Origin: Aphanomyces cochlioides
Taxonomy: Eukaryota > Oomycota > Saprolegniomycetes > Saprolegniales > Verrucalvaceae
Direction: 5' to 3'
Assembly (NCBI GenBank): GCA_019828595.1
Contig: JAHQRK010000041.1
Location: forward strand, 186,001 to 250,000
DNA: 64,000 bases
Of this stretch, positions 10,339-58,030 are shown one piece after another. The position numbers and the translations under genes are program-made. Position 1 is the first letter of the stretch. Every line of letters begins with the position of its first letter. A model generated the notes under the pieces. That model saw nothing but the letters and a program-made list of their open reading frames with translations. It ran no database searches and was not told the origin of the DNA.

Positions 10339-10584
10339 TCGGGCGTATCGCTATCTGCCATATTGCTTGACACGAGCTTCGGCCTCTTGATTTGGAATAT
10401 CATGGAAACGTTGTATGCCGGCGAAGACGAGAAGTCGCGATACGTCTTGACCACGATCCTGGAATTCCATGAGGCTGGCTCCCTGGACCCCACCTTCGAC
10501 AACCAAGTGATGTTCCAACCCGACACTCAGACACTCATGCTGGGAGATGTTGCGAACGCAACGTCTGTCGCGTTCCGTGGCTAA
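10339..10584 (+). pseudogene. ORF1 C-terminal fragment (family B)
   Basis: The last 81 residues of family B ORF1 (ending SVAFRG) with the natural stop at 10582-10584. It overlaps the start of ORF2 by 38 nt, as in B3. It is truncated by the element's 5' truncation. Confidence 0.9.
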
Positions 10585-13500
10585 GGTGGTCGCGGCCGGT
10601 CTCTTCACCAAGTTCCCCATACTCGAACTGACCACTGCCAACCTCAATGGGCTGAAAGACAACGGACATCTTGTGGCGCGGCGACTCCAAATTCCGACCC
10701 AAGCCGTTTTCTTTCAAGAAACCAAAATCAATAACATCAAACATCTCGAAACCTTCCAACTCCACCTCAACAACGAAGTAGGCGTTGGCAAATACAAGCT
10801 CTTCACCAACGATCTCCGCACTGATCGCGTCGACTCACTCAACAATCGGCGCTGCGGTGTGGCATCGTATTTCCATGGATCCATGCCTGGATTCCTCGAC
10901 CTGCAACACTTGACCACCCATGACCGACCTGGAAGATACATGGTTGTTCGAACTCAGTGGGACGGCGTTCCTGTGTACTTTCACAACGTCTATGCCCCGG
11001 TTATCGCTCACTCTCGAGCACCGTTTTTCGACGACCTGCCTCGCGACTTTGAAGACGACAGCATTCACTTTGTCGGAGGCGATTTCAACTTACCCCTGGA
11101 GGAGCATCTGGACGCGACTCGACCTCGCCAAGACCACAACGCTGGTAAGGCGGAATGCATTGCCTGGCTTTCAGCACTTGGTGTTACCGATGCGTGGAGG
11201 ATGCACCACCCCAACGAGCGCGTTTACAGCGGCCCTGGTCGAAGCAACCGCCTCGACTACCTGTTTGTGGACCAAGATATCGTCGCTCAAACGTACGCAC
11301 GTTCAAGCTATTCCCCAAGCAGCTTTGCAGGCGACCACATGGAACACAAAGTGGTCCTCTCCTGCGAGCAGCGAGCTCCCGACCGAAGTTACTGGCGCCT
11401 CCCCCGTGAGCTCTTAAAGAACCCTCAAGTAGTCGCAGCGATCAAGGCCGAAGCCAATCAACTTTTGGACGAGATGCGCGCAGACGACACTCAAAACTTT
11501 GGCGCAAAGTGGTACGGCTGGTTGAAGAGAATGAAGAAGCGTCTCCAAGTCAGTCATCGCCAGTACATTGACTCGATGAAGTACACACTCAACAGCCTCA
11601 AGATGAAGTGGCTTACTTCCCGCCGAGCATTCGACATGGGACTCGTTGAGACATCCATTGTTAATACCGCCCGTCAAGCCCTTGACACTGCCCGCAGCGA
11701 GTACCGACAGTTCAACCTGGATCAGCAATTCGACTTTCACGCCAACGTCAACGAGCGAGGTACCAGTCACTTTTTTCGTCGACCCAAGGGGATCAAAGTG
11801 CCGCTCTCGTCCGTGACAATCAACGGTGTAACGTCGACTGACCCGTCTGAAGTCAAGGCTGGTTTTACGTCTCATTGGAAAAACATCATGGTCACTCCAA
11901 GAGACCAACCACCGTTGAATCGGGCCCGTCGCCGAGCTATCATTCGAGCCATTACTCGACGTCTCACTCAAGAACAGCGCGACGCTCTGGAAAGTCCTCT
12001 CACGGCGGAAGACCTGTGCGGCGCGCTCAAGTCTATGAACCCGAACAAGTCTCCTGGTTCAGACGGCTGGCCTGCAGCTTTCTTTCAAGTCTCCCCGGAC
12101 GTATTCGCCCAAATCCTGCTCAAGGTGTTCAACTACCAACTCACCCATCACGGTCACCTCCTGCTCCAACAACGCCGAAGTGCAGTGGCGCTCTTGTTCA
12201 AGGCTGGAGACAGAGGCGACCCTGGCAACTATCGGCCGATTACTCTCATGTCGGTTGAAGTCAAGATTCTATCGCGGGCGCTGGCCTACCGTCTTGCACA
12301 AGTTGCCCCATACCTCGCTCACCCAAGCCAAGCTGGTTTTGTCCCTGGCCGTCGCTTGCACGACCACGTGATGCTGGTACAAGCATTGCAGACTTTCTGT
12401 ACCAATGAAGACCACGACTACTACGCGACGTTTCTCGACTTTTCCAAGGCATACGATATGGTTGACCAAGGCTTTCTCTTCGACGTACTCAAGGAGATGA
12501 ACATCGGTCCCACATTTGTGTCTTGGGTTCAGTTGCTTTACAATACGCCTCTGGTCCAGATCATTTTCAACGACGGTCTTGGCCCTACCATACGGCCTAC
12601 CCGCGGAGTCAAGCAAGGTTGCCCCCTATCGTGCATGCTCTTCGTACTTTACCTCGAGCCACTCGGCGAAATGCTACGCGGATCTCCTGATTTTGGTATT
12701 CCCCTTCCAAATGGAGACTCACTGACGAGCATCTACTTTGCCGACGACACGACTCTACTCTCGTCATCCCTCCAAGCGGCGGTCGAGCAAATGGCAATTG
12801 TCGAAGACTTTTGCTCTGTGTCTGGAGCTCGTCTCAACGTTGCCAAGTGCATGACTTTGGCGCTCAACAACAATCTCGATATCGAAGACATCGACGATGG
12901 TGGCCTCTTGAACGTCTTGCCGAGCGAGAAGCCAGTGAAATACCTTGGTATTCTCTTTGGCCACCGACTGCCGCGCGATTTTCAAGTCCAGCAACTGAAC
13001 GACAAGTTTCTGGCTGCGTTTCAAACGTGGGGAAGTCGTGCGCGAACCATCCAAGGCCGCAAACTCATCGTATCGACCATGTTGTTGTCGTTGTTATGGC
13101 ATGTCACGGCTGCAGTGTATGTGCCTCCAACGATGGTTGCCGTTTGGCAAAGAATGGTCAACAAGTACATCCTTGGTCGGAAGACGCAAATCACCGACCA
13201 TCATCGCTCAACTATTTGCCGCAAGTGGCAGTTCGATCAAAAACTCGGCCTCGGTATTCCGCATGTGGCTTCGAAGCTTCGGACTCAGCGACTGCTGCGG
13301 CTCCAACTCTTGATGCAGCCCAATTCACCCAACACATTTGCCCCATGGAAGTTGCTTGTCAAGAGACAATTTTCCCGTGTCATGAACAAGCTGTATCGCG
13401 ACACCCACCCGTTCGACTTTCTCACGTACTTCCCCAACCACAGCTCCAAGTGGTTGTTTTTGTGGGAGCTGCATCCTCTTTGGCACGACATTTGGCATCA

Positions 13501-14701
13501 ATGGGCCGCCACACCTATGGCCAAGCGAACCGCTTCGCCACCAAGCCTCGAAGAACTTTTGAACCTCCCCGTGTGGCTGACATCCTACCCCGCTCTGCAA
13601 GTTGGTCCTGCGGGTGCTACATCAAATGTCGTGAAGACTGCTCTGTGTCGTCGATGGTGTAGACATGCGTCTCAAAACGGTTTCCACTGCCTCAAAGACT
13701 TCTTGACACGGCAAGGGACATGGCCTACAAGAGCTGCGTTTATTGATCGACTGTCATCCAACAACCGTGCGGCACAAGTGACGTTACAAGCGAACGGCAC
13801 GATGGGATTTGCAGCACCCGAACGTGCTGGTCAAGTTTATAGCCACCTCACCAAGATATTCGACCAAGTCCTCCGCACGTCTGGCGTTCGAACTGGAACT
13901 GCTTTGACCGATATCGATACAACAAGTCACCCTTTCAAGGCACTTTTCAAAGATCAATTGCTATCCTTCGAGCGTTGGCCCAAGCGACTCGTATCACGTT
14001 TGGCGCATCACGCCCCTTCGGATGGAAAACCGCACCCAGTGGCGACATCGTCCCGCGTCGAGCAACAAGATATTGCGACCTACGTGCGACTCATCCGCAA
14101 AACATGCCGTTGGCCGCCTCCCCTCCATGGCGACGTTTGGTTTCGACTGTTGTTCAACATGCTGCCTGTCAACTCGCGCTTGTTCTACTTGCAACCTCAG
14201 CAGCCAGACGTAATTTGCTGTGTCTATACCAATTGCGACGCACCGGAGAACCAACACCACGCCTTCCACACCTGCTCTCGCGTGTATCCCCTTTGGCGTT
14301 TTCACGCGACCGCTTGGCGATGCTTCGGTGTCAATTTCGATTGGACTGCCATCACCAACATCGACCGCTTTCAAGTCAACGAACGCGGTAGCCAGCTTCA
14401 AGACATACTGTTTGTGCTCTGGGCTCTTCTGTGTGCTTCCAACCTTCACTATATTTGGACAACGCACAACGCCGCCAAGTTCGAATCGAAGGAGCCGCCT
14501 CCGCCAGAAATTTGGCAAGAAGTCAGCTTCATCCGATGGCATGCATCGATCCGCAGATGGCTTCGCCTCCAAGAAGTTGACAGCCCTCAACGAGTGGAAG
14601 CAATTTCAGCAATCAATACTTTGCATAGACAACCTGTCTATCGCCCACTGGTAGCCAAGTACCCGACTTTGCTCGCGCTCCAACCTTCAGTCCCAAATTA
14701 A
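10547..14701 (+). CDS. Family B ORF2: APE endonuclease / reverse transcriptase, intact
   Basis: 1384 residues from ATG 10547. The N-terminal third is an apurinic-type endonuclease: NLNG, QETK, a NVYAPV segment, GGDFN, RLDY and GDH follow in the usual order. The central reverse transcriptase shows LDFSKAYD (catalytic D631), PTRGVKQGCPLS and FADD (731-734). Near the C-terminus is a CCHC knuckle, C1225-x4-C1230-x7-H1238-x4-C1243, typical of L1-group elements. The ATG lies inside the ORF1 end, in a different frame. The protein would nick the target and copy element RNA into DNA there. Catalytic residues are all present, so this copy could supply activity in trans even though its own ORF1 is lost. 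L1/Tx1 group is my assignment from domain order; clade placement needs a tree. Confidence 0.95.
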   Translation: MLRTQRLSRSVAKVVAAGLFTKFPILELTTANLNGLKDNGHLVARRLQIPTQAVFFQETKINNIKHLETFQLHLNNEVGVGKYKLFTNDLRTDRVDSLNNRRCGVASYFHGSMPGFLDLQHLTTHDRPGRYMVVRTQWDGVPVYFHNVYAPVIAHSRAPFFDDLPRDFEDDSIHFVGGDFNLPLEEHLDATRPRQDHNAGKAECIAWLSALGVTDAWRMHHPNERVYSGPGRSNRLDYLFVDQDIVAQTYARSSYSPSSFAGDHMEHKVVLSCEQRAPDRSYWRLPRELLKNPQVVAAIKAEANQLLDEMRADDTQNFGAKWYGWLKRMKKRLQVSHRQYIDSMKYTLNSLKMKWLTSRRAFDMGLVETSIVNTARQALDTARSEYRQFNLDQQFDFHANVNERGTSHFFRRPKGIKVPLSSVTINGVTSTDPSEVKAGFTSHWKNIMVTPRDQPPLNRARRRAIIRAITRRLTQEQRDALESPLTAEDLCGALKSMNPNKSPGSDGWPAAFFQVSPDVFAQILLKVFNYQLTHHGHLLLQQRRSAVALLFKAGDRGDPGNYRPITLMSVEVKILSRALAYRLAQVAPYLAHPSQAGFVPGRRLHDHVMLVQALQTFCTNEDHDYYATFLDFSKAYDMVDQGFLFDVLKEMNIGPTFVSWVQLLYNTPLVQIIFNDGLGPTIRPTRGVKQGCPLSCMLFVLYLEPLGEMLRGSPDFGIPLPNGDSLTSIYFADDTTLLSSSLQAAVEQMAIVEDFCSVSGARLNVAKCMTLALNNNLDIEDIDDGGLLNVLPSEKPVKYLGILFGHRLPRDFQVQQLNDKFLAAFQTWGSRARTIQGRKLIVSTMLLSLLWHVTAAVYVPPTMVAVWQRMVNKYILGRKTQITDHHRSTICRKWQFDQKLGLGIPHVASKLRTQRLLRLQLLMQPNSPNTFAPWKLLVKRQFSRVMNKLYRDTHPFDFLTYFPNHSSKWLFLWELHPLWHDIWHQWAATPMAKRTASPPSLEELLNLPVWLTSYPALQVGPAGATSNVVKTALCRRWCRHASQNGFHCLKDFLTRQGTWPTRAAFIDRLSSNNRAAQVTLQANGTMGFAAPERAGQVYSHLTKIFDQVLRTSGVRTGTALTDIDTTSHPFKALFKDQLLSFERWPKRLVSRLAHHAPSDGKPHPVATSSRVEQQDIATYVRLIRKTCRWPPPLHGDVWFRLLFNMLPVNSRLFYLQPQQPDVICCVYTNCDAPENQHHAFHTCSRVYPLWRFHATAWRCFGVNFDWTAITNIDRFQVNERGSQLQDILFVLWALLCASNLHYIWTTHNAAKFESKEPPPPEIWQEVSFIRWHASIRRWLRLQEVDSPQRVEAISAINTLHRQPVYRPLVAKYPTLLALQPSVPN

Positions 14702-15779: not shown

Positions 15780-17163
15780 ATGTCAATGGGGAGTCTATTT
15801 GTAGTTAATGTAAACTACAAACTAATATTGCCCGAAGGCTCATCCCATTTCCAACTGCTAGGCTGAATTGGAAATCAATTTGGCTTTTCGTTTTCTTGAT
15901 TCGCTTCGACGTTGGGACTTCGATTTCTTCGGTGTTTGTAAGCTAACACGGCGAATATGTCGGATAAAACTGACTCTTGGCATCTGACCCAGGGGGTATA
16001 CATTTTCATTGTCTTGGATCATACATAGACTTCGGTCTATGCAGCGCTTGTATCGCTTGGCGAGGACCCAGCAATGGGATGTTGAATCAGTGACAGAAAC
16101 AACCAAGAATTCTCCGTCAGGCTCATCCAATATCGCTCTACAGATATCACGAATTGGATCACCCACCGATTGCTTGAGCAGTTGACGGGAGAATATGGCG
16201 TCGTTGTAGTGGAATCCATGTGTGTATGCCAGCTTGAGAAAATCATGCATCTTGGAAGGGGGAATGCCCGCGTCTTGAGGAACTCCATGGGCCTCTTTGA
16301 AACCCGAAATGACTTCTTCGCTGAGCTCAAAATTGGAGACATTCAAATTGGTAGCAACGATTCGGATTGCAGCCGCAAGACAAGATTTGTCACTGTTGTT
16401 GCCAATTTCTAGCCACAGAGGATCCATCGCTCGAAATTCAGCAAGCGTTGGGGCGAGACCAGTGTTCGTGAGGAAGTGGGCTCCAGCTTGTCGCCATCGT
16501 TGGTACATCGCCACGGCTTCTTGACACCCGCTGAGGTCTTTTTCGTCGAACCAGTCTTTGTCGAGTCCATCCGGGCGTTGAAACTTCCAGTTGACTTGGT
16601 ATTGAATAGTTGAAATTCGATTTCGCATTGATGCCACTTCGCGGTGGTCATCGATAAACAACACTTCATCGATGTCATCATCGTCGGTTGGAATTCGCAG
16701 AGTGCGTGGGCGGTTGGTTGGGGCATCAGCCGTTGTCGCATTCGTTTGTGGCCTGGCTGGAACAGAAACATCGTCCAATAGATCCATGAGGGATGGTAGC
16801 GGAGATCCATTGTCATTGCCCAAGGGGTCAAATTCGCGGGTGCTCGAGTTCAAAATGGACATATCAGGAGTAAATTGGTGTTCTTCAGTTGTAACTGGAC
16901 TTGAAGGACGAGTGTCGGATGATTGCGTCATAGGTACAGAAATCTCAACTCCATCCACTCCCTCAAGAGTAATCCCTGGAGACATCGAGCTCCCCACACC
17001 TCGTGTAGTTATGGGTCTCGACGTCTGCGCGGGGAGTACGCTATCGGCAGTGAAAATCGTTGAAGCTTCCATTGTTGTTGTCTTGGGTAAAATCAAAAGT
17101 GAGTCTTGGAGAATTGTTTTGAGATTCTCACTGAACTTATTCTCAGTTGCGACACTTGAGTCA
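15780..17163 (-). mobile_element. Family A copy A4, ORF3-only truncation
   Basis: A 1.38-kb 5'-truncated copy in which the 5' junction lies 91 nt upstream of the ORF3 ATG (TGACTCAAG...). It contains only ORF3 and the structured 3' end. The same truncation point occurs in A6 and A8, so the three are duplicates of one insertion, spread by array amplification. Confidence 0.93.
15858..17072 (-). CDS. ORF3: chromodomain-like and cysteine-peptidase-like protein (solo copy)
   Basis: 404 codons from ATG 17072-17070, uninterrupted. It encodes the full protein described at 54443, in an element that has lost everything else. The tRNA-Asn gene at 17164 lies head to head 91 nt upstream of the ATG, so any transcript would start near a Pol III gene. 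Compared with A6/A8 it keeps Phe in the VSFIRHIRR segment, as A3, A5 and A7 do. Confidence 0.8.
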   Translation of the reverse strand: MEASTIFTADSVLPAQTSRPITTRGVGSSMSPGITLEGVDGVEISVPMTQSSDTRPSSPVTTEEHQFTPDMSILNSSTREFDPLGNDNGSPLPSLMDLLDDVSVPARPQTNATTADAPTNRPRTLRIPTDDDDIDEVLFIDDHREVASMRNRISTIQYQVNWKFQRPDGLDKDWFDEKDLSGCQEAVAMYQRWRQAGAHFLTNTGLAPTLAEFRAMDPLWLEIGNNSDKSCLAAAIRIVATNLNVSNFELSEEVISGFKEAHGVPQDAGIPPSKMHDFLKLAYTHGFHYNDAIFSRQLLKQSVGDPIRDICRAILDEPDGEFLVVSVTDSTSHCWVLAKRYKRCIDRSLCMIQDNENVYPLGQMPRVSFIRHIRRVSLQTPKKSKSQRRSESRKRKAKLISNSA

Positions 17164-19999: not shown

Positions 20000-20072
20000 T
20001 CCTCTATAGCTCAGTTGGTAGAGCGTACGGCTGTTAACCGTAAGGTCGCAGGTTCGAACCCTGCTGGAGGAG
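20000..20072 (+). tRNA. tRNA-Asn (GTT), uninserted 5' flank
   Basis: Same 73-nt sequence; 5' flank is native spacer B, so this is an empty target site. Confidence 0.97.
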
Positions 20073-21097: not shown

Positions 21098-22426
21098 TTT
21101 GAGGAACTTTTGATTTTACCCAAGACAACAACAATGGAAGCTTCAACGATTTTCACTGCCGATAGCGTACTCCCCGCGCAGACGTCGAGACCCATAACTA
21201 CACGAGGTGTGGGGAGCTCGATGTCTCCAGGGATTACTCTTGAGGGAGTGGATGGAGTTGAGATTTCTGTACCTATGACGCAATCATCCGACACTCGTCC
21301 TTCAAGTCCAGTTACAACTGAAGAACACCAATTTACTCCTGATATGTCCATTTTGAACTCGAGCACCCGCGAATTTGACCCCTTGGGCAATGACAATGGA
21401 TCTCCGCTACCATCCCTCATGGATCTATTGGACGATGTTTCTGTTCCAGCCAGGCCACAAACGAATGCGACAACGGCTGATGCCCCAACCAACCGCCCAC
21501 GCACTCTGCGAATTCCAACCGACGATGATGACATCGATGAAGTGTTGTTTATCGATGACCACCGCGAAGTGGCATCAATGCGAAATCGAATTTCAACTAT
21601 TCAATACCAAGTCAACTGGAAGTTTCAACGCCCGGATGGACTCGACAAAGACTGGTTCGACGAAAAAGACCTCAGCGGGTGTCAAGAAGCCGTGGCGATG
21701 TACCAACGATGGCGACAAGCTGGAGCCCACTTCCTCACGAACACTGGTCTCGCCCCAACGCTTGCTGAATTTCGAGCGATGGATCCTCTGTGGCTAGAAA
21801 TTGGCAACAACAGTGACAAATCTTGTCTTGCGGCTGCAATCCGAATCGTTGCTACCAATTTGAATGTCTCCAATTTTGAGCTCAGCGAAGAAGTCATTTC
21901 GGGTTTCAAAGAGGCCCATGGAGTTCCTCAAGACGCGGGCATTCCCCCTTCCAAGATGCATGATTTTCTCAAGCTGGCATACACACATGGATTCCACTAC
22001 AACGACGCCATATTCTCCCGTCAACTGCTCAAGCAATCGGTGGGTGATCCAATTCGTGATATCTGTAGAGCGATATTGGATGAGCCTGACGGAGAATTCT
22101 TGGTTGTTTCTGTCACTGATTCAACATCCCATTGCTGGGTCCTCGCCAAGCGATACAAGCGCTGCATAGACCGAAGTCTATGTATGATCCAAGACAATGA
22201 AAATGTATACCCCCTGGGTCAGATGCCAAGAGTCAGTTTTATCCGACATATTCGCCGTGTTAGCTTACAAACACCGAAGAAATCGAAGTCCCAACGTCGA
22301 AGCGAATCAAGAAAACGAAAAGCCAAATTGATTTCCAATTCAGCCTAGCAGTTGGAAATGGGATGAGCCTTCGGGCAATATTAGTTTGTAGTTTACATTA
22401 ACTACAAATAGACTCCCCATTGACAT
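21098..22426 (+). mobile_element. Family A copy A5, ORF3-only truncation
   Basis: A 1.33-kb copy. After the tRNA come 8 bases (TTTGAGGA, 21098-21105) not found at this place in other family A copies; family A sequence then starts 28 nt before the ORF3 ATG. It is a truncation event separate from A4/A6/A8, yet also keeps just ORF3 and the 3' end. Confidence 0.93.
21134..22348 (+). CDS. ORF3: chromodomain-like and cysteine-peptidase-like protein (solo copy)
   Basis: 404 codons from ATG 21134, uninterrupted, the same protein as described at 54443. The start lies 36 nt from the 5' end of the divergent tRNA-Asn gene, so there is almost no room for an independent promoter. Confidence 0.8.
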   Translation: MEASTIFTADSVLPAQTSRPITTRGVGSSMSPGITLEGVDGVEISVPMTQSSDTRPSSPVTTEEHQFTPDMSILNSSTREFDPLGNDNGSPLPSLMDLLDDVSVPARPQTNATTADAPTNRPRTLRIPTDDDDIDEVLFIDDHREVASMRNRISTIQYQVNWKFQRPDGLDKDWFDEKDLSGCQEAVAMYQRWRQAGAHFLTNTGLAPTLAEFRAMDPLWLEIGNNSDKSCLAAAIRIVATNLNVSNFELSEEVISGFKEAHGVPQDAGIPPSKMHDFLKLAYTHGFHYNDAIFSRQLLKQSVGDPIRDICRAILDEPDGEFLVVSVTDSTSHCWVLAKRYKRCIDRSLCMIQDNENVYPLGQMPRVSFIRHIRRVSLQTPKKSKSQRRSESRKRKAKLISNSA

Positions 22427-33688: not shown

Positions 33689-33761
33689 TTCTCTATAGCT
33701 CAGTTGGTAGAGCGTACGGCTGTTAACCGTAAGGTCGCAGGTTCGAACCCTGCTGGAGGAG
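33689..33761 (+). tRNA. tRNA-Asn (GTT), altered acceptor stem
   Basis: As the other copies except that nt 2 is T instead of C, turning acceptor pair 2-71 from C-G into a T-G wobble. The change sits exactly at the junction with B5 and is best read as a base lost from the tRNA end and replaced by an element base. It may still fold, but 5' maturation or aminoacylation could be affected. Confidence 0.93.
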
Positions 33762-44154: not shown

Positions 44155-44227
44155 CTCCTCCAGCAGGGTTCGAACCTGCGACCTTACGGTTAACAGCCGT
44201 ACGCTCTACCAACTGAGCTATAGAGGA
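44155..44227 (-). tRNA. tRNA-Asn (GTT), uninserted 5' flank
   Basis: Same 73-nt sequence. It is the only minus-strand tRNA in the window whose 5' end joins spacer B directly (44227/44228), so it gives the pre-insertion sequence of the target. Confidence 0.97.
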
Positions 44228-45124: not shown

Positions 45125-46508
45125 ATGTCAATGGGGAGTCTATTTGTAGTTAATGTAAACTACAAACTAATATTGCCCGAAGGCTCATCCCATTTCCAAC
45201 TGCTAGGCTGAATTGGAAATCAATTTGGCTTTTCGTTTTCTTGATTCGCTTCGACGTTGGGACTTCGATTTCTTCGGTGTTTGTAAGCTAACACGGCGAA
45301 TATGTCGGATAATACTGACTCTTGGCATCTGACCCAGGGGGTATACATTTTCATTGTCTTGGATCATACATAGACTTCGGTCTATGCAGCGCTTGTATCG
45401 CTTGGCGAGGACCCAGCAATGGGATGTTGAATCAGTGACAGAAACAACCAGGAATTCTCCGTCAGGCTCATCCAATATCGCTCTACAGATATCACGAATT
45501 GGATCACCCACCGATTGCTTGAGCAGTTGACGGGAGAATATGGCGTCGTTGTAGTGGAATCCATGTGTGTATGCCAGCTTGAGAAAATCATGCATCTTGG
45601 AAGGGGGAATGCCCGCGTCTTGAGGAACTCCATGGGCCTCTTTGAAACCCGAAATGACTTCTTCGCTGAGCTCAAAATTGGAGACATTCAAATTGGTAGC
45701 AACGATTCGGATTGCAGCCGCAAGACAAGATTTGTCACTGTTGTTGCCAATTTCTAGCCACAGAGGATCCATCGCTCGAAATTCAGCAAGCGTTGGGGCG
45801 AGACCAGTGTTCGTGAGGAAGTGGGCTCCAGCTTGTCGCCATCGTTGGTACATCGCCACGGCTTCTTGACACCCGCTGAGGTCTTTTTCGTCGAACCAGT
45901 CTTTGTCGAGTCCATCCGGGCGTTGAAACTTCCAGTTGACTTGGTATTGAATAGTTGAAATTCGATTTCGCATTGATGCCACTTCGCGGTGGTCATCGAT
46001 AAACAACACTTCATCGATGTCATCATCGTCGGTTGGAATTCGCAGAGTGCGTGGGCGGTTGGTTGGGGCATCAGCCGTTGTCGCATTCGTTTGTGGCCTG
46101 GCTGGAACAGAAACATCGTCCAATAGATCCATGAGGGATGGTAGCGGAGATCCATTGTCATTGCCCAAGGGGTCAAATTCGCGGGTGCTCGAGTTCAAAA
46201 TGGACATATCAGGAGTAAATTGGTGTTCTTCAGTTGTAACTGGACTTGAAGGACGAGTGTCGGATGATTGCGTCATAGGTACAGAAATCTCAACTCCATC
46301 CACTCCCTCAAGAGTAATCCCTGGAGACATCGAGCTCCCCACACCTCGTGTAGTTATGGGTCTCGACGTCTGCGCGGGGAGTACGCTATCGGCAGTGAAA
46401 ATCGTTGAAGCTTCCATTGTTGTTGTCTTGGGTAAAATCAAAAGTGAGTCTTGGAGAATTGTTTTGAGATTCTCACTGAACTTATTCTCAGTTGCGACAC
46501 TTGAGTCA
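45125..46508 (-). mobile_element. Family A copy A6, ORF3-only truncation
   Basis: A 1384-bp copy with the same length and 5' truncation point as A4 and A8. Shares two substitutions with A8 that A4 lacks, so A6 and A8 are the closer pair. Confidence 0.93.
45203..46417 (-). CDS. ORF3: chromodomain-like and cysteine-peptidase-like protein (solo copy)
   Basis: 404 codons from ATG 46417-46415, uninterrupted. Differs from the other copies by Ile for Phe in the C-terminal VSIIRHIRR segment (shared with A8). The predicted catalytic Cys, His and Asp are kept. Confidence 0.8.
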   Translation of the reverse strand: MEASTIFTADSVLPAQTSRPITTRGVGSSMSPGITLEGVDGVEISVPMTQSSDTRPSSPVTTEEHQFTPDMSILNSSTREFDPLGNDNGSPLPSLMDLLDDVSVPARPQTNATTADAPTNRPRTLRIPTDDDDIDEVLFIDDHREVASMRNRISTIQYQVNWKFQRPDGLDKDWFDEKDLSGCQEAVAMYQRWRQAGAHFLTNTGLAPTLAEFRAMDPLWLEIGNNSDKSCLAAAIRIVATNLNVSNFELSEEVISGFKEAHGVPQDAGIPPSKMHDFLKLAYTHGFHYNDAIFSRQLLKQSVGDPIRDICRAILDEPDGEFLVVSVTDSTSHCWVLAKRYKRCIDRSLCMIQDNENVYPLGQMPRVSIIRHIRRVSLQTPKKSKSQRRSESRKRKAKLISNSA

Positions 46509-47533: not shown

Positions 47534-47606
47534 CTCCTCCAGCAGGGTTCGAACCTGCGACCTTACGGTTAACAGCCGTACGCTCTACCAACTGAGCTAT
47601 AGAGGA
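47534..47606 (-). tRNA. tRNA-Asn (GTT)
   Basis: Same 73-nt sequence; 5' end abuts the full-length element A7, which starts at the next base. Confidence 0.97.
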
Positions 47607-47653: not shown

Positions 47654-50121
47654 ATGGCGACTACCCGCTCTTCCAGCCGTGCTCATGCACACAAGCCCTC
47701 AGCTTTTTCTGCCTCTCCCTTTCGCAATACCTCGGACGCTTCTAGTATCATGGAGGTGATTGTTGACGATGATGATGACGATGAACCTGACTCAATCATC
47801 GACAAAACTCCGCCTGCTGCTCAACCGCCCATACGTCTTGCTACACTCGGTGGTCGCGTGCCATTACCAAGCGCTCGTACCAGCGACAAAACTGTCAACA
47901 AGGATAATGTTTCTCCGATGCCTGATGAAGACATAGAGGATATCTCCAACAACAACCAACCACATACCCCACCGATTACTCAAGCCACTGAGCTGGAGCC
48001 GCGCTCTGAAGACCAATCGATTCGCGACACCAATGTTGATGTGGAAATGGAGCCTGAAGCTCAAATCGATGCCTCGCCTCCTGCTACAACACGCTCCGTG
48101 CCAATACCACCCGAGTCGAACACCTCGACCAAAAAGCCAAACGAATGCGTGTGGGAATTCCAAGCCAAGCAGAGAGCTAAATCTGCCAAGGCTCAGCGGA
48201 ACAGTGACGTCGGCCATTATCGACCAACTATGGCCGAGCTGGCGTCCTTGTTGCAAAAACGCGCGACAGGATCTCTCACGTTTGACGACACTTTGCCCAT
48301 CCAAAAACATTCCCCCAGAGATGTTGTTGGCTGGCTACAAATGTCCACTGGCCAATACACCAAATACATCGACATCTCCAAGGCAATGACATCTCTATTG
48401 TTTGACAACCAAGCGCTTGATTTGGACGATGCATTTGTCGATGTCATCAAGTGCGAGAAAGATGTCTCCAATCGTCTTCTCAAGTGGGGCATAGCCTCTG
48501 AAGATGCTCTTAAAAAGCTGCGTGGAGTCTCTCTCAAGATCCAAGTGGCAAAGGATGGCAGCTCTCAGAGATTTGTCATGACAGAGCCCCATATACTTGA
48601 TGGATATTTCATCGATATCCCATCTGGTCTCCAAGGACAGGATGAAGAACGTCTCATGTTCAGCATCATGTCAAAGCTTGAGCCGCGCTTTTTGTGGGGC
48701 TCATACTCCACAGTTTCCTCGACGACTGGCTTGGCTAGCTCTCGTTATCGCTTGTATTTTGAAGGGACAGCTATACCCGAATCTATGCACAATGACGGTC
48801 GATCAATTGAAGAATTCATTTTCAAGGGTCGGTGCCTCCGCGTGTTTGGTCAAGGATGGTTTTACCGTGACAAGAAGCTCGCGCGCCTTGACCTCGATGT
48901 AATCGCCACCCCCAACATGGACTTCACGCAACCCCTCACCGCCCACGGGGAGACGCCGCTGTCTCGACATCCACTGCCAAACGGCAGAAAACGACCCGAG
49001 ACAGCAACAAGGAATGGACTGAAGTTCAAACTACAGGCAAAAGAAAGAAAACCCCAATCTCCGCTGGCTCAATCCCAGCTCCTGATCGTCCTTGGATCTC
49101 CCCGAACATGTTTGCGGCTCTGGACGAACGCGCTAATGTTGAGCCCGAGGAACACGAAACGACAGTTGGCAACACCACTGTCAAAGTAATTGTTCCAAAG
49201 CTGACACTCAAATCTGGTGACAAGGTGCACGTTGCCGCTGAAGAGTTCATTAGCGGGATCAAACCCCACGAGGGCTCAATCCAAAGGTTTGAGAAGTCTC
49301 TCGATGTCATACTTGCCGAGCTCAACGACCTTGACACCAAGGCTCAAAACGCACCACAACATATCCCGGCCCAAGTTAAGGAAGCGTTAGCGCACGATTC
49401 CTTCAACTTATTGAAATTGATTACGGACGGGCGTGTTGACACGATCTGCATCCATCTAGAACGTGCGCCAATCGAATTTGGACTGCAACTGCACCAAATT
49501 TTTGTCTCCAATCGTGACAGCTTCGAATACTTTGTTCGTCTTCGACTGCTTAATCGTTGGCTAAGAGCGTCTGGTGGTGGCACAAAATCTTTTGGTCAGC
49601 TCTACGAGGCAACATTCGGCACTCCAATCACTCACGACCACGTGATCTCGGTGTTCAGTGACCAGAAGATGGTCAACAACCTCCCACTCATCGAGGCAAT
49701 CATCACCGATGATGACATCGTCCTCAACAGAGTTGAAGTCGAAGAAGTGCTGGCCATTGCAGAAGTATTGATGGCAGTTCATGCTCCACTATATTTCAAT
49801 AGCGATGCGGCAATTTTGGCCTCAACAAAAAGTCCAGTGACAGCGTTACCCTCTCGCCTTGGTAAACGCAGTCTATCCTCCGAAACGCTCATGTCACTCC
49901 TGATGTACACCGACCTTGGCCTCCACATATGGAACAGAATGGAATTCATGTACACTGGCGACGGAGAATCGATGTGTCACATCATGACAAAAATCCTTCA
50001 ACTACACGAAAGCAACGATTTGGATATCACTCTCCACAATCAAGTCATGTTTCACCCAAGCGAACCTACTTTAATTCACGGCGACCTAGCGGATCTCACA
50101 ACGATCGCTTCCCGTGGCTAA
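47654..50121 (+). pseudogene. Family A ORF1, one frameshift
   Basis: Starts at ATG 47654. The frame is lost at the C-run 48909-48913, which has five C where A1 has three. Downstream the original reading continues in the next frame (KRQKTTRDSNKEW, GKRKKTP, PWISPNMFAALDE) to the stop at 50119-50121. Without the 2-nt insertion the frame would be 822 codons. The N-terminus is acidic (VDDDDDDEP). The middle (FDDTLPIQKH, SRYRLYFEGT, FKGRCLRVFGQGW) and the C-terminal half match family B ORF1. The KR-rich segments look like nuclear localisation signals. No zinc knuckle or RRM can be named; a nucleic-acid-binding role is inferred only from its place in the element. Confidence 0.9.
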
Positions 50122-53100
50122 AGTGGTCGCGGCTGGTCATTTTGTCAAGCTCCCCATACTTGAAGTGACGACGAGCAACCTCAATGGGCTGAAAGAAAAC
50201 GGACATCTTGTTGCACGGCGTCTTCGGAAACCGACACAAGCTGTTCTCTTTCAAGAAACGAAACTCAACAACGCAAAACATCTTGACACTTTCCACACTC
50301 ACCTCGACAACGAAGTGGGTGTTAGCAAGTACAAACTTTTTACCAACGACTTACGAACAACCCGCACGGACAATTTGAACAACCGTCGATGTGGCGTTGC
50401 ATCATACTTTCACGAATCGATGCCTGGATTCTCAAGCCTGGTGCACTTATCACAACACGATATCCCTGGCCGTTATATTGTGATCAAAACGTACTGGGAT
50501 GAAACCCCAGTCTACATCCACAACATTTACGCGCCAGTTACCCCTCAACATCGGGCTAGTTTCTTTGACAGTCTCCCTCGCGCTTTTGAAGCTAACAGTG
50601 TACACCTGGTTGGGGGAGATTTTAACCTTCCTGTCAACGAACACCTCGATGCTTCCAAACCACGGCAAGATCACACCTTTGGAAAAGTCGAATGTCTTGC
50701 CTGGCTGTCACAACTAGGAGTCATCGACGCGTGGCGCCTACACCACCCTCACGAAAGACTGGCAAGCGGTCCAGGACGAAGCAATCGTCTGGACTACTGG
50801 TTCATTGACCAAGATTTAGTTGCCCAATCCTACCAAAGCTCAAAATATGCCACTAACAGCTTTGCCGGAGATCACTTGGAGCACACTGTCGTTCTCTCTA
50901 CAAGTCATACACCCACGACCCGTGGCTACTGGAGGCTGCCGAGAGAGCTACTCAAAGACCCGCTCGTCATCAAAGCCATACGAGAAGAGGCATCACACCT
51001 CCTCTCTGAGATGCGTGCGGACGAATCGACAAACATGGGAGCCGTCTGGTATGGGTGGCTTAAGCGAATCAAACGACGTTTACAACAATGTCATCGCCAC
51101 CACCTCCAATCCATGCAACACGAGCTCAAAAGCCTAAAACTGAGACATATATCTGCACAACGATCATACGAAGCTGGCTTGCTCGACGAGGCTGCCGTTG
51201 ATGCTACTCGGTTGGCGCTGGAAAACGCAAGAATCGAATATCGCCAATACCGCATGGATCAGCAATTCGATTTTCATGCAAATATCAACGAACGCGGTAC
51301 GAGCCACTTCTTTCGAAGGCCACAAGGACTCAAGGTTCCTATCACGACGGTCAACGTCGATGGCATTCCCGTGTCTGATCCTACCACTATCAAAGAGAGA
51401 TTCACTGCCCATTGGAAGGCAATAATGACTACCACTCGTGGCGAACAACCTCGGCTAAACCGGGCGAGGCGGAGGGCTGTCATACGGTTTATCTCCCGCA
51501 AACTCAATGATGAGCAACGCGAGGAGCTAGACAGACCTATCACAGCAGCCGAGCTGTGTAGTGCTCTCAAGACAATGAGTCCAAACAAGTCTCCTGGTCC
51601 TGATGGATGGCCAGCGGCCTTCTTCCAAGTAGCACCCGAGGCTTTCTCCGAAATCCTGGTCAGGGTCTTCAACTACCAACTTCACCACCACGGTAAACTA
51701 CTCCTTCAACAAAGGCGTAGTGCTGTGGCTCTGCTCTTCAAAGCTGGTGATCGAGGCGATCCTGGAAACTACCGACCTATTGCACTCATGTCAGTGGAGG
51801 TGAAGATACTATCCCGTGCCCTCGCTTATCGCCTGGCTACAGTAGCTCCTCATCTCATTCACCCAAGTCAAGCTGGCTTTGTCCCAGGACGACGGCTGCA
51901 TGACCACGTCCTGCTTGTGCAAACTTTGCAAACGTTTTGCACCAACGAAGATCACGACTACTATGCAACATTCCTTGACTTTTCGAAAGCGTACGACTTG
52001 GTGGATCGAGAATTCATGCTTGATGTGCTGAGAGAAGTCAACACTGGTGATGGTTTCATTGCGTGGGTAGCTCTTTTGTACGACTCACCTTTGGTCCAGA
52101 TCATCTTCAATGGCGAGCTTGGCCCTAAGATCCGACCTACCCGAGGCGTCAAACAAGGCTGTCCTTTATCATGCCTACTGTTCGTCCTATACCTAGAACC
52201 TCTTGGTGAGATGCTCCGAGCGTCCCCACATCTTGGAATCGCTCTCCCCCACGACTCAGTTATTACGAGTATATTCTTTGCCGACGACTCGACGTTGTTA
52301 TCAAACTCGCTGCAATCTGCTGTGGAGCAAATGGCAATTGTGGAAGAGTTTTGCACGGCTTCAGGGGCCCGTCTGAATCGTTCCAAGTGCATGACCTTGG
52401 TTCTCAACGACCATCTCGATCAAGAAGACATCGAAGCAGATGGTTTGCTCAATATCGTACCAACTGGTCAGTGTACGAAATATCTTGGTATTCTCTTTGG
52501 CCATCGACTTTCGGCTGACTCCCAACTTCAAAAACTCAACGACAAATTCATCTCGTCCTTTCAACTATGGGGTAAACGAGCAAGGACATTGCAGGGCCGA
52601 AAGCTTATTGCCTCCACGATGTTGCTATCTATGTTGTGGCATGTAACAGCCGTTGTACCTGTGCCTCCTGCTATGGTCGTTACGTGGCAACAAATGTTAA
52701 ACAAGTTCATACTTTGCCGCAAGACCCAGCTCGATGAGAGTTACCGTCCCTCAATCCATAGAAGGTGGCAGTACGACAAGCCTTTAGGCCTGGGAATCCC
52801 CCACATTGCATCGAGGCTGCGAACACAACGCCTTCTTCGTTTACAGCTCTTTATGTCTGCCGATTCTCCTGGTGAAATCCTGGTGTGGAAGAAACTTGTA
52901 CAGCGACAATTTAGCCGCACAATACATCAGTTATTCCGAGACAGTCACCCATTCGATTTTCTTTCATACTACCCAAATGCAAGCTCCAAGTGGCTTTTGC
53001 TTCGCGAGCTCCATCCACTGTGGCTTGATACTTGGAAACATTGGTCAGCCACAGACATGAGTAAGCGAATCGGCGTGCCTCCAAATCTCGACACGGTACT

Positions 53101-54229
53101 GAACCTCCCGGTATGGCTCACAGCCTACGACGCAATGCACTTCGGCTCTGCTAAGATGTTAGCAAATGTCGTGAAAGATGAAGACATGCGTCTCTGGTGC
53201 CGCCACGGGGCCAAAAATGGTCTCAGATGCCTGAAGGATTTCCTGACCCCACATGGCGCTTGGCCAACAGAGACCATGTTCGTGAACCGAATGTCGTCGA
53301 ACAATCCAGCTGCCCAAGTTTGTCTAAACCAGGACGGAGTCATGGACTTTGCCACATTGCCCCGCACAACCGACATTTACAATCAACTCACACGAATCTT
53401 CGACAAAGTTGTTCGATCGTTTGACATTCGGCAAGGGTCGCCACTGCCTAATGTCCCGACTTGTCAACATCCGTTTACAGCCAGAATCAAGGATGCTGAT
53501 TTACCTTTCGAGTCGTGGCCCAAGAAAAACGTGGTGCATTTAGCTTACCACGCCCCCCAGACTGAAGCTATACATCCTATGAAGACTACGACAAGAACTG
53601 ACAAAGACATAGCAAAGTATATCCGTCTCATTCGTACTGTGTGTAATCTACCTCCACCTGTTCAAGGCGATGTATGGTTTCGATTGCACATGAAGATGTT
53701 ACCCGTCAACTCGAGGTTTTCCTATATGCAGATCCAAAACCCTGACGCTATTTGTTGTGTCTATGAAGATTGCTCGGATGTTGAGACTTTTCATCATGCC
53801 TTCCATACATGTCATCATGTACATCAAGTTTGGATGTTCCAAGAGCGAGCATGGAGAGCTTATGGTGTTAAGTTTGATTGGGCAACCACCACGAATATCA
53901 GTCGCTTCAAGACCAATACGCGAGGAAAACACCTGCATGACGCATTATTCAAATTATGGTCCCTCCTTTGTGCTTCCATCACGTACTCCTTATGGACTCA
54001 AAGAAATGCAACCAAGTTCGATGGCAAAAGGCCTCTACCGATTTTACTATGGAACGAGATTATATTTGTCAGTTGGACAGCTTCCATCAGGCGAACAATT
54101 CGTTTGCTCTCGCCTGACGACTTCGACTATCGAAACATCATCGAAGCGGTCTCAGTCCTTTTCTCTCAAGCTGGATACAACGAGCTATTCGAAAAATATC
54201 CCATGTCTTTTCGAGTTGAACACCAGTAA
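50114..54229 (+). CDS. Family A ORF2: APE endonuclease / reverse transcriptase, intact
   Basis: About 1371 residues. Endonuclease residues in order: N23, E48 (QETK), Y139 (NIYAPV), D169 and N171 (GGDFN), D227 (RLDY), D253-H254 (GDH). Reverse transcriptase: LDFSKAYDLVD with catalytic D622, PTRGVKQGCPLS, and FADD at 722-725. C-terminal knuckle C1215-x4-C1220-x7-H1228-x4-C1233. The frame opens at 50090 and has no ATG before the endonuclease; the first possible codon is GTG 50114, inside the ORF1 end. Family B has an ATG here, family A does not. ORF2 may thus be translated by frameshift or reinitiation at the ORF1 stop. The protein should cut the tRNA-Asn target and copy element RNA onto it. Confidence 0.93.
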   Translation: MAKVVAAGHFVKLPILEVTTSNLNGLKENGHLVARRLRKPTQAVLFQETKLNNAKHLDTFHTHLDNEVGVSKYKLFTNDLRTTRTDNLNNRRCGVASYFHESMPGFSSLVHLSQHDIPGRYIVIKTYWDETPVYIHNIYAPVTPQHRASFFDSLPRAFEANSVHLVGGDFNLPVNEHLDASKPRQDHTFGKVECLAWLSQLGVIDAWRLHHPHERLASGPGRSNRLDYWFIDQDLVAQSYQSSKYATNSFAGDHLEHTVVLSTSHTPTTRGYWRLPRELLKDPLVIKAIREEASHLLSEMRADESTNMGAVWYGWLKRIKRRLQQCHRHHLQSMQHELKSLKLRHISAQRSYEAGLLDEAAVDATRLALENARIEYRQYRMDQQFDFHANINERGTSHFFRRPQGLKVPITTVNVDGIPVSDPTTIKERFTAHWKAIMTTTRGEQPRLNRARRRAVIRFISRKLNDEQREELDRPITAAELCSALKTMSPNKSPGPDGWPAAFFQVAPEAFSEILVRVFNYQLHHHGKLLLQQRRSAVALLFKAGDRGDPGNYRPIALMSVEVKILSRALAYRLATVAPHLIHPSQAGFVPGRRLHDHVLLVQTLQTFCTNEDHDYYATFLDFSKAYDLVDREFMLDVLREVNTGDGFIAWVALLYDSPLVQIIFNGELGPKIRPTRGVKQGCPLSCLLFVLYLEPLGEMLRASPHLGIALPHDSVITSIFFADDSTLLSNSLQSAVEQMAIVEEFCTASGARLNRSKCMTLVLNDHLDQEDIEADGLLNIVPTGQCTKYLGILFGHRLSADSQLQKLNDKFISSFQLWGKRARTLQGRKLIASTMLLSMLWHVTAVVPVPPAMVVTWQQMLNKFILCRKTQLDESYRPSIHRRWQYDKPLGLGIPHIASRLRTQRLLRLQLFMSADSPGEILVWKKLVQRQFSRTIHQLFRDSHPFDFLSYYPNASSKWLLLRELHPLWLDTWKHWSATDMSKRIGVPPNLDTVLNLPVWLTAYDAMHFGSAKMLANVVKDEDMRLWCRHGAKNGLRCLKDFLTPHGAWPTETMFVNRMSSNNPAAQVCLNQDGVMDFATLPRTTDIYNQLTRIFDKVVRSFDIRQGSPLPNVPTCQHPFTARIKDADLPFESWPKKNVVHLAYHAPQTEAIHPMKTTTRTDKDIAKYIRLIRTVCNLPPPVQGDVWFRLHMKMLPVNSRFSYMQIQNPDAICCVYEDCSDVETFHHAFHTCHHVHQVWMFQERAWRAYGVKFDWATTTNISRFKTNTRGKHLHDALFKLWSLLCASITYSLWTQRNATKFDGKRPLPILLWNEIIFVSWTASIRRTIRLLSPDDFDYRNIIEAVSVLFSQAGYNELFEKYPMSFRVEHQ

Positions 54230-54442
54230 TTTGATTACAAGCCCCAGCTGTATTCTTGACTTGGTATCCCAGCTGAATTTTTGATTGGGAATCCTGGCGA
54301 CCATCACTCACGATCCGCGCAAAACATTTCACTGCCCAATCAAATCGTGCCTGACTCAAGTGTCGCAACTGAGAATAAGTTCAGTGAGAATCTCAAAACA
54401 ATTCTCCAAGACTCACTTTTGATTTTACCCAAGACAACAACA

Positions 54443-55657
54443 ATGGAAGCTTCAACGATTTTCACTGCCGATAGCGTACTCCCCGCGCAGACGTCGAGAC
54501 CCATAACTACACGAGGTGTGGGGAGCTCGATGTCTCCAGGGATTACTCTTGAGGGAGTGGATGGAGTTGAGATTTCTGTACCTATGACGCAATCATCCGA
54601 CACTCGTCCTTCAAGTCCAGTTACAACTGAAGAACACCAATTTACTCCTGATATGTCCATTTTGAACTCGAGCACCCGCGAATTTGACCCCTTGGGCAAT
54701 GACAATGGATCTCCGCTACCATCCCTCATGGATCTATTGGACGATGTTTCTGTTCCAGCCAGGCCACAAACGAATGCGACAACGGCTGACGCCCCAACCA
54801 ACCGCCCACGCACTCTGCGAATTCCAACCGACGATGATGACATCGATGAAGTGTTGTTTATCGATGACCACCGCGAAGTGGCATCAATGCGAAATCGAAT
54901 TTCAACTATTCAATACCAAGTCAACTGGAAGTTTCAACGCCCGGATGGACTCGACAAAGACTGGTTCGACGAAAAAGACCTCAGCGGGTGTCAAGAAGCC
55001 GTGGCGATGTACCAACGATGGCGACAAGCTGGAGCCCACTTCCTCACGAACACTGGTCTCGCCCCAACGCTTGCTGAATTTCGAGCGATGGATCCTCTGT
55101 GGCTAGAAATTGGCAACAACAGTGACAAATCTTGTCTTGCGGCTGCAATCCGAATCGTTGCTACCAATTTGAATGTCTCCAATTTTGAGCTCAGCGAAGA
55201 AGTCATTTCGGGTTTCAAAGAGGCCCATGGAGTTCCTCAAGACGCGGGCATTCCCCCTTCCAAGATGCATGATTTTCTCAAGCTGGCATACACACATGGA
55301 TTCCACTACAACGACGCCATATTCTCCCGTCAACTGCTCAAGCAATCGGTGGGTGATCCAATTCGTGATATCTGTAGAGCGATATTGGATGAGCCTGACG
55401 GAGAATTCTTGGTTGTTTCTGTCACTGATTCAACATCCCATTGCTGGGTCCTCGCCAAGCGATACAAGCGCTGCATAGACCGAAGTCTATGTATGATCCA
55501 AGACAATGAAAATGTATACCCCCTGGGTCAGATGCCAAGAGTCAGTTTTATCCGACATATTCGCCGTGTTAGCTTACAAACACCGAAGAAATCGAAGTCC
55601 CAACGTCGAAGCGAATCAAGAAAACGAAAAGCCAAATTGATTTCCAATTCAGCCTAG
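54443..55657 (+). CDS. Family A ORF3: chromodomain-like and cysteine-peptidase-like protein
   Basis: 404 residues from ATG 54443 (context acaacaATGG). The frame is open about 160 nt further upstream but has no ATG there. Residues 1-130 are Ser/Thr/Pro-rich and likely disordered. Residues 133-193 resemble a chromodomain: IDEVLFIDDHR, then QYQVNWKF, DWFDEKDL and an EAVAMY helix; W162 and W174 fit conserved positions, but the first cage aromatic is not evident. Residues 220-360 look like a papain/OTU-type peptidase: D228-K-S-C231-LAAA (compare DGNCLFRA of OTU proteins), H333 (SHCWVL) and D354 (IQDN). The tail (382-398, KKSKSQRRSESRKRKAK) is a likely nuclear signal. All seven copies are open. Chromodomains in Ty3-type elements direct integration to chromatin; a similar role, or processing of host proteins, is speculation. 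Domain calls are by eye. Confidence 0.82.
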   Translation: MEASTIFTADSVLPAQTSRPITTRGVGSSMSPGITLEGVDGVEISVPMTQSSDTRPSSPVTTEEHQFTPDMSILNSSTREFDPLGNDNGSPLPSLMDLLDDVSVPARPQTNATTADAPTNRPRTLRIPTDDDDIDEVLFIDDHREVASMRNRISTIQYQVNWKFQRPDGLDKDWFDEKDLSGCQEAVAMYQRWRQAGAHFLTNTGLAPTLAEFRAMDPLWLEIGNNSDKSCLAAAIRIVATNLNVSNFELSEEVISGFKEAHGVPQDAGIPPSKMHDFLKLAYTHGFHYNDAIFSRQLLKQSVGDPIRDICRAILDEPDGEFLVVSVTDSTSHCWVLAKRYKRCIDRSLCMIQDNENVYPLGQMPRVSFIRHIRRVSLQTPKKSKSQRRSESRKRKAKLISNSA

Positions 55658-55735: not shown

Positions 55736-55749
55736 TGAGCTATAGAGGA
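55736..55749 (-). repeat. Target duplication (right side of A7)
   Basis: TGAGCTATAGAGGA, exact, followed by spacer B. Confidence 0.95.
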
Positions 55750-56646: not shown

Positions 56647-58030
56647 ATGTCAATGGGGAGTCTATTTGTAGTTAATGTAAACTACAAACTAATATTGCCC
56701 GAAGGCTCATCCCATTTCCAACTGCTAGGCTGAATTGGAAATCAATTTGGCTTTTCGTTTTCTTGATTCGCTTCGACGTTGGGACTTCGATTTCTTCGGT
56801 GTTTGTAAGCTAACACGGCGAATATGTCGGATAATACTGACTCTTGGCATCTGACCCAGGGGGTATACATTTTCATTGTCTTGGATCATACATAGACTTC
56901 GGTCTATGCAGCGCTTGTATCGCTTGGCGAGGACCCAGCAATGGGATGTTGAATCAGTGACAGAAACAACCAGGAATTCTCCGTCAGGCTCATCCAATAT
57001 CGCTCTACAGATATCACGAATTGGATCACCCACCGATTGCTTGAGCAGTTGACGGGAGAATATGGCGTCGTTGTAGTGGAATCCATGTGTGTATGCCAGC
57101 TTGAGAAAATCATGCATCTTGGAAGGGGGAATGCCCGCGTCTTGAGGAACTCCATGGGCCTCTTTGAAACCCGAAATGACTTCTTCGCTGAGCTCAAAAT
57201 TGGAGACATTCAAATTGGTAGCAACGATTCGGATTGCAGCCGCAAGACAAGATTTGTCACTGTTGTTGCCAATTTCTAGCCACAGAGGATCCATCGCTCG
57301 AAATTCAGCAAGCGTTGGGGCGAGACCAGTGTTCGTGAGGAAGTGGGCTCCAGCTTGTCGCCATCGTTGGTACATCGCCACGGCTTCTTGACACCCGCTG
57401 AGGTCTTTTTCGTCGAACCAGTCTTTGTCGAGTCCATCCGGGCGTTGAAACTTCCAGTTGACTTGGTATTGAATAGTTGAAATTCGATTTCGCATTGATG
57501 CCACTTCGCGGTGGTCATCGATAAACAACACTTCATCGATGTCATCATCGTCGGTTGGAATTCGCAGAGTGCGTGGGCGGTTGGTTGGGGCATCAGCCGT
57601 TGTCGCATTCGTTTGTGGCCTGGCTGGAACAGAAACATCGTCCAATAGATCCATGAGGGATGGTAGCGGAGATCCATTGTCATTGCCCAAGGGGTCAAAT
57701 TCGCGGGTGCTCGAGTTCAAAATGGACATATCAGGAGTAAATTGGTGTTCTTCAGTTGTAACTGGACTTGAAGGACGAGTGTCGGATGATTGCGTCATAG
57801 GTACAGAAATCTCAACTCCATCCACTCCCTCAAGAGTAATCCCTGGAGACATCGAGCTCCCCACACCTCGTGTAGTTATGGGTCTCGACGTCTGCGCGGG
57901 GAGTACGCTATCGGCAGTGAAAATCGTTGAAGCTTCCATTGTTGTTGTCTTGGGTAAAATCAAAAGTGAGTCTTGGAGAATTGTTTTGAGATTCTCACTG
58001 AACTTATTCTCAGTTGCGACACTTGAGTCA
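56647..58030 (-). mobile_element. Family A copy A8, ORF3-only truncation
   Basis: 1384 bp, same truncation point as A4 and A6 and same private substitutions as A6. Here the tRNA side is occupied by element B8, which must have inserted after this block was duplicated. Confidence 0.93.
56725..57939 (-). CDS. ORF3: chromodomain-like and cysteine-peptidase-like protein (solo copy)
   Basis: 404 codons from ATG 57939-57937, uninterrupted, with the VSIIRHIRR variant shared with A6. Unlike A4 and A6, the sequence upstream is now the 3' end of B8 rather than a tRNA. Confidence 0.8.
   Translation of the reverse strand: MEASTIFTADSVLPAQTSRPITTRGVGSSMSPGITLEGVDGVEISVPMTQSSDTRPSSPVTTEEHQFTPDMSILNSSTREFDPLGNDNGSPLPSLMDLLDDVSVPARPQTNATTADAPTNRPRTLRIPTDDDDIDEVLFIDDHREVASMRNRISTIQYQVNWKFQRPDGLDKDWFDEKDLSGCQEAVAMYQRWRQAGAHFLTNTGLAPTLAEFRAMDPLWLEIGNNSDKSCLAAAIRIVATNLNVSNFELSEEVISGFKEAHGVPQDAGIPPSKMHDFLKLAYTHGFHYNDAIFSRQLLKQSVGDPIRDICRAILDEPDGEFLVVSVTDSTSHCWVLAKRYKRCIDRSLCMIQDNENVYPLGQMPRVSIIRHIRRVSLQTPKKSKSQRRSESRKRKAKLISNSA

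Follow-up and report, generated by a model that had tools for sequence, protein, structure and literature searches.

A third open reading frame with a chromodomain-like segment in a tRNA-gene-associated LINE family of Aphanomyces cochlioides

LINEs normally end with the open reading frame (ORF) that encodes the reverse transcriptase (RT). In the sugar-beet root-rot oomycete Aphanomyces cochlioides, one family of such elements, here called family A, carries a third ORF (ORF3) behind it and inserts at tRNA genes. The closest described systems, as far as insertion habit is concerned, are the TRE5 and NLTR elements of Dictyostelium, L1-group LINEs aimed at tRNA genes; TRE5 is found on the upstream side of the tRNA gene in the opposite orientation, and NLTR-A inserts 2-6 bp upstream (PMC5911963, PMC5006619). 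Family A takes the same position and orientation as TRE5, a likeness by insertion habit. However, the Dictyostelium elements are described as inserting at a distance outside the gene, whereas the duplication made by family A lies inside it (nt 1-14, A-box) and has an exact junction. The same A-box stretch is used by Dada DNA transposons, which target the inside of tRNA genes and of which some have target-site duplications (TSDs) reading TAGCTC; these are DDE transposons and not LINEs, likened to family A by target alone (PMC3706591). Among the titles and abstract openings covered, we recognised no LINE that inserts inside a tRNA A-box.

Accessory domains and additional ORFs have also been described in several transposable elements. 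NeSL and Utopia are site-specific RLE LINEs, some families of which carry Ulp1 at the N-terminus of the RT protein, and oomycete Utopia elements have been reported with RNase H (PMC4640811). They resemble family A in being site-specific and in having a cysteine protease domain, which in ORF3 is putative, but Ulp1 lies within the RT protein of RLE elements, whereas the candidate region of family A, an APE-type element, belongs to a separate downstream ORF and follows the order Cys-His-Asp. Family-specific third ORFs captured downstream of pol, and missing in some related families, are known from bdelloid retroelements; these elements are LTR and Penelope-like, however, and the types named in that report (env, GDSL, DEDDy, CC or TM) include no chromodomain (PMC5408684). 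OTU and Ulp1 are known from Ginger1 transposases (PMC2836005), and chromodomains are named as accessory domains of LTR elements (PMC6338049). In the open-access literature, covered mostly as titles and the beginnings of abstracts and with subscription papers mostly outside, no LINE with a chromodomain was found. To our knowledge, a conserved family-specific third ORF with a chromodomain-like module in a LINE would be the first known case.

LINE insertion at the A-box of tRNA genes

The stretch analysed, hereafter the window, comprises 64,000 nucleotides of assembly GCA_019828595.1 (contig JAHQRK010000041.1, positions 186,001 to 250,000) and is an array of tRNA-Asn(GTT) genes; ARAGORN and Rfam agree on 17 of them, which Rfam scores at 67-72 bits. 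These near-identical genes stand in opposed orientations between positions 1448 and 47606, as a tandem array of ~2-kb units expanded by LINE insertions. Spacers resembling satellite units extend from tRNA to tRNA; a reading of the X-Y tandem repeats as plain satellite or centromere was rejected, as they are tRNA-gene arrays by ARAGORN and Rfam. The element under study and, for comparison, a family B element of the window are laid out as follows:

47534..47606, minus strand: intact tRNA-Asn(GTT) gene that adjoins the element on its upstream side (ARAGORN; Rfam RF00005, 72.1 bits)
47593-47606: left target-site duplication, the first 14 nt of the tRNA-Asn gene (junctions)
47654..50121, plus strand: ORF1 region of this copy, two overlapping frames (47654-49189 and 49108-50121)
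50114..54229, plus strand: ORF2, with APE endonuclease-like, reverse transcriptase and zf-RVT-like parts (Pfam, PDB)
54230..54442, plus strand: spacer between ORF2 and ORF3, with a 25-bp tandem repeat at 54243-54294
54443..55657, plus strand: ORF3, third ORF of LINE family A (translation, seven window copies, homologue P0003)
55736..55749, plus strand: right target-site duplication, TGAGCTATAGAGGA (junctions)
10547..14701, plus strand: family B ORF2, with no ORF3 after it (Pfam, window copy survey)

Family A is an APE-type, L1-like LINE, with endonuclease and RT in ORF2, target-site duplications and 5' truncation. Its ORF2 matches Pfam RVT_1 at E 1.7e-32, with Exo_endo_phos (E 0.0039) and zf-RVT both below the Pfam cut-off, and its best PDB match is human LINE-1 ORF2p, at E 1.5e-56 across the endonuclease and RT; R2 follows at 1.2e-27. 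The ORF1 of this copy is split, either by a frameshift peculiar to it or by a programmed one, and the family B counterpart is a single 682-aa frame (25424-27472).

Judged by exact 14-mer junctions, the elements of the window start directly where an intact tRNA gene has its 5' end, or else behind a duplication that belongs to another element; they run antisense to the adjoining tRNA gene and end in TGAGCTATAGAGGA, which is the reverse complement of tRNA-Asn nt 1-14. One further family A end in the window reads TGAGCTTTAGAGGA, and the tRNA gene at which one truncated family B copy begins has a variant end (33689-33761, 67.3 bits). Junctions without an element are present at 44214-44228 and 19999-20013, and the 14 bp are therefore a target-site duplication. 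The target of the LINEs is the A-box of tRNA genes (TGAGCTA, 14-bp duplication), and the tRNA gene is left whole. The duplication restores the gene, which is thereby open to further insertions, and stacked elements with the same 14 bp between them are found at 10325, 31749 and 58044. This cycle of rebuilding and renewed insertion explains the nested arrays, and targeting of the tRNA A-box is of interest by itself.

The same junction extends beyond the window. TGAGCT follows the family A 3' end in 51 of 51 cases across L001-L040 and the window (50 TGAGCTA and one TGAGCTT, the window copies in L029 and L030, at least, being counted twice), with different sequences after it. In the fetched loci, family A junctions correspond to the first 14 nt of tRNA-Asn, Phe, Ala and Lys genes and the family C junction to those of tRNA-Ile; in L045 a family A 5' end lies behind a tRNA-Ile gene. 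Further junctions, with TGAGCTA followed by TAGGGG, TGACCG, CAACCC or AACGGG, were matched to no named tRNA gene. Two more candidates, tRNA-Val and tRNA-His, were rejected as targets, as their first 14 nt match no junction, and are neighbours in the fetched loci. Over the window and L001-L046, families A, B and C are seen at no fewer than five kinds of tRNA gene and stack repeatedly at the same gene.

The third ORF and its copies

ORF3 encodes 404 aa on the plus strand, from an ATG at 54443 to a stop codon ending at 55657 (translation), and sits downstream of the ORF2 stop (54229) and upstream of the 3' end of the element (55735), which confirms the third frame that an earlier note on this DNA had placed there. 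Six other copies occur in the window:

4265..5473, plus strand: first window copy, 6 bp shorter through a 6-bp in-frame deletion
9032..10246, plus strand: open copy
15858..17072, minus strand: open copy in a 5'-truncated element abutting a tRNA-Asn gene
21134..22348, plus strand: open copy in a 5'-truncated element abutting a tRNA-Asn gene
45203..46417, minus strand: open copy in a 5'-truncated element abutting a tRNA-Asn gene
56725..57939, minus strand: open copy in a 5'-truncated element stacked behind a family B element

All seven window copies are open and share 99.5-100% protein identity. In the genome (76.2 Mb, 94 contigs), ORF3 matches amount to at least 113 copies, a lower bound in which 113 of 222 candidates were scored, with an internal stop in none of the 113. 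At the DNA level, 76 BLAST matches in the fetched loci, minus 13 under 900 nt, gave 63 rows that stand for 59 distinct places; 49 of these hold a full-length copy, and there are 17 distinct full-length haplotypes. Among the 59 places (at least 900 nt) a single copy lacks 1 bp, at ORF3 nt 1007. The claims that the frame is open in all copies and that the 6-bp deletion is its only indel were accurate for the window, where the deletion is indeed present, but not for the genome as a whole. A pattern search for diverged ORF3 returned one and the same 29-base sequence at 17 places, and in ten fetched loci of this pattern ORF3 is >99% identical; two further pattern searches of the genome gave no diverged copies.

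The solo ORF3 copies are 5'-truncated insertions that differ hardly at all from the long ones, and the common first base (54352) in three of them suggests array duplication. Because the copies are so alike, openness is expected even without selection. The openness of solo copies, pointed out before, is thus no sign of function and was rejected as proof of selection.

Family B lacks ORF3, as had been proposed: its ORF2 is followed by a 3' end ~78% identical to that of family A. After the family C ORF2, ORF3 was absent in six of six loci examined, over ~1.5 kb downstream in each; in L043, one of the family C loci, an ORF3 fragment of a neighbouring insertion lies beyond the tRNA-Ile 5' end. Seven stretches of 1.3-3 kb downstream of other LINE-like ORF2 matches contained no ORF3 either (best tblastn E 0.28). 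The evidence supports the occurrence of ORF3 in family A only, among the LINE families examined, and with it the idea that ORF3 was gained or lost as a cassette.

As to selection, comparison of the 17 full-length haplotypes, the dN/dS check that had been suggested for the copies, gave 10 nonsynonymous (N) and 6 synonymous (S) variants and no stop, where the shares expected for random changes (0.71 N, 0.26 S, 0.04 stop) correspond to ~11.7 N to 4.3 S. This variation within the genome is near neutral and compatible with an absence of selection. A more distant relative, the 360-aa protein P0003, comes from a 1,627-bp metagenome contig and has a full-length frame and the same C-terminus as ORF3. 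The two are identical at 183 of 278 aligned residues over 121-404 (66%) and at 20 of 78 over 1-120 (26%), a contrast between core and N-terminus with Fisher p 4e-10. In simulations of neutral drift to 65-68% identity, with substitutions alone and no indels, the core stayed open in 16-17 of 4000 runs (~0.4%). This comparison has to be read with the caveat that protein databases contain only open frames and that P0003 is known from its short contig alone; the conservation of P0003 is nevertheless better evidence of constraint on ORF3 than the openness of the copies.

These figures bear on the possibility that ORF3 is a passenger, a fragment of a host or transposon gene captured in the 3' region of family A, which has no role and is open through recency. 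The near-identity of the copies and their near-neutral N:S ratio fit such a history, as do families B and C, which manage without ORF3 at the same kind of site; word-based protein searches, of limited sensitivity, found no homologue beyond A. cochlioides and the one metagenome contig, and scans of viral and prokaryote contigs found no relatives. However, P0003 has kept its frame and its C-terminus with strongly uneven conservation at 66% core identity, and neutral drift, as simulated, rarely leaves such a frame open. We consider the passenger history unlikely, but a serious contender.

The chromodomain-like segment and the conserved region behind it

Within ORF3, the following parts can be told apart:

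54839..55021, plus strand: chromodomain-like segment, residues 133-193 (Pfam Chromo, PDB, hhalign)
55070..55537, plus strand: conserved region, residues 210-365, putative Cys peptidase (101 of 150 aligned residues identical to P0003)
55133-55135, plus strand: Cys231, putative catalytic
55439-55441, plus strand: His333, putative catalytic
55502-55504, plus strand: Asp354, putative catalytic
55538..55654, plus strand: basic C-terminal tail, residues 366-404 (14 K/R, 1 D/E)

For the first of these, Chromo (PF00385) is the sole Pfam family up to E 10 in both ORF3 and P0003. The ORF3 fragment 122-200 matches it at E 0.003 (17.9 bits), full-length P0003 at E 0.015 (15.7 bits) and the P0003 fragment at E 0.00076 (19.8 bits), all three below the Pfam curated cut-off of 25.1 bits; Chromo was absent from the Pfam matches of whole-length ORF3 and of the 285-aa core. 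Against PDB, the segment gave eight weak matches, six of them chromodomains at E 0.09-0.96, with swi6, CDYL, CDY1 and MPP8 among the names, and a two-sequence profile of the core found no chromodomain there. Profile-profile comparison by hhalign with a smaller chromodomain set, a check that had been asked of this region, came out two-sided, with P 0.0044 and a probability of only 7.9%. In the weak PDB alignment Trp162 is aligned with one of the three aromatics of the methyl-lysine cage, as in HP1, and the other two positions are not clearly aromatic.

The chromodomain seen by eye in the earlier note is borne out in part, by Pfam Chromo in two sequences that are 66% identical and by PDB chromodomains, but with every score below the cut-off. 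Residues ~133-193 are, with moderate support, probably a chromodomain-like module. Its weak matches are to cellular chromodomains (swi6/CDY/MPP8) and not to those of local transposons, which hints at a cellular source. A crude profile built from 15 chromodomains of this genome, mostly transposon-like, scored neither ORF3 nor P0003 above shuffles. In L059, L060 and L061 we observed a repeated integrase-like ORF of 362-374 aa, presumably of TDD type, with a C-terminal chromodomain, open in many genome copies. ORF3 shares with chromoviruses and such integrases a chromodomain encoded by a transposable element, but theirs is fused to the integrase, and the profile made mostly from local chromodomains of this kind misses ORF3.

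The region 210-365 contains fully conserved islands between ORF3 and P0003 (DKSCL, AGIPPSKM, LLKQSVGDPIRDICRAI, SHCWVL and CMIQD). Cys231, His333 and Asp354, singled out before as a papain- or OTU-like arrangement, are present together with the basic tail, and all three residues are kept in P0003. The peptidase reading itself found no support: Pfam and NCBIfam gave no peptidase profile in ORF3 or P0003, PDB gave no peptidase match to ORF3, and other Cys and His residues (Cys311, Cys334, Cys350 and His285) are equally conserved. Moreover, the four OTU matches in the genome at E 0.01 include no ORF3 place. The order Cys-His-Asp, with an Asp three residues before the Cys, recalls OTU or papain-like enzymes. 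Ulp1 (C48) peptidases have the order His-Asp-Cys, from which the proposed ORF3 order differs. Two AlphaFold models (mean pLDDT 38.7 and 39.9) are too poor to speak for or against either a chromo or a peptidase fold; in the second, Cys231 lies in a helix and His333 and Asp354 are next to strands, a hint only that residues 210-365 might adopt a papain/OTU-like fold.

Possible roles of ORF3

The reading that we favour, tentatively and at somewhat less than even confidence, is that ORF3 is a genuine accessory protein of family A, nuclear, chromodomain-like and maintained by selection, which would act after or beside target choice. It is favoured because P0003 keeps the frame, Chromo appears in both sequences, the tail is basic, and families B and C target tRNA genes without ORF3; against it stand the near-neutral N:S ratio, Chromo scores below the cut-off, an unclear cage and the lack of a peptidase profile. 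Under this proposal the basic tail would take the protein into the nucleus, and the chromodomain-like module would hold it on chromatin, either at the element or its target or close to them. The 210-365 domain, which might be a papain/OTU-type hydrolase with a Cys-His-Asp set, would aid expression or integration there, for example by removing a ubiquitin-like mark or opposing silencing. A narrower version, in which ORF3 is a chromatin-tethered protease that strips Pol III genes of a ubiquitin-like mark or a silencing protein, so that family A keeps inserting at the same tRNA gene, is distinctly unlikely.

Improbable, too, is a role as a partner that binds nucleic acid or RNP, in the manner of a second chaperone akin to ORF1, whose resemblance to chromodomains would go no further than a small beta-barrel fold. 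The basic tail and the sub-threshold chromodomain scores would suit it, but among named matches the segment scores best with chromodomains, and no RNA-binding profile is matched in Pfam.

Chromodomains of chromovirus integrases have been proposed to steer integration to particular chromatin. By analogy, the chromodomain-like segment could make ORF3 a targeting factor that steers the integration complex, and here the tRNA targeting, which the earlier note had not recognised, alters the chromodomain story, because ORF3-less families have the same junctions. Exact 3'-end patterns, which require G or C at one tRNA position, occur in the genome at 151 places for family A, 187 for B and 50 for C, with 0 for the reversed-pattern controls. 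Among the matches listed, A has eight target sequences and B seven of these eight plus one odd place; all 50 places of C together have five, four of them common to A. Since families B and C share the A-box junction of A without ORF3, ORF3 is not required to select the A-box site. ORF3 as a site-choosing factor was set aside on these grounds and, with the methyl-lysine cage not clearly present as well, we judge a targeting role quite improbable; ORF3 may have an effect on insertion efficiency. For the accessory protein that we favour, the sister families at the same kind of tRNA site provide a natural control for the contribution of ORF3.

Very improbable, finally, is a self-processing protease made by occasional readthrough from ORF2, which would cut the fusion or ORF1: ORF2 and ORF3 do have a common frame in this copy and the Cys231/His333/Asp354 set is conserved in P0003, but two stops lie between them (TAA at 54227-54229 and TGA at 54257-54259), ORF3 has its own ATG, a common frame is a 1 in 3 chance, the spacer deviates in length in 7 of 34 complete cases (5 of the 7 by a non-multiple of three), its RNA fold is unremarkable (z -0.67), and there is no peptidase signature. 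The 25-bp repeat of this spacer, present in two copies at 54243-54294, 4065-4116 and 8832-8883, spans the second stop between ORF2 and ORF3.

Three public A. cochlioides gene models (P0002, P0004 and P0005) fuse ORF3 with either unrelated sequence or the RT tail of a different LINE family, P0005 containing the C-terminus of the family C ORF2; these models look like annotation errors.
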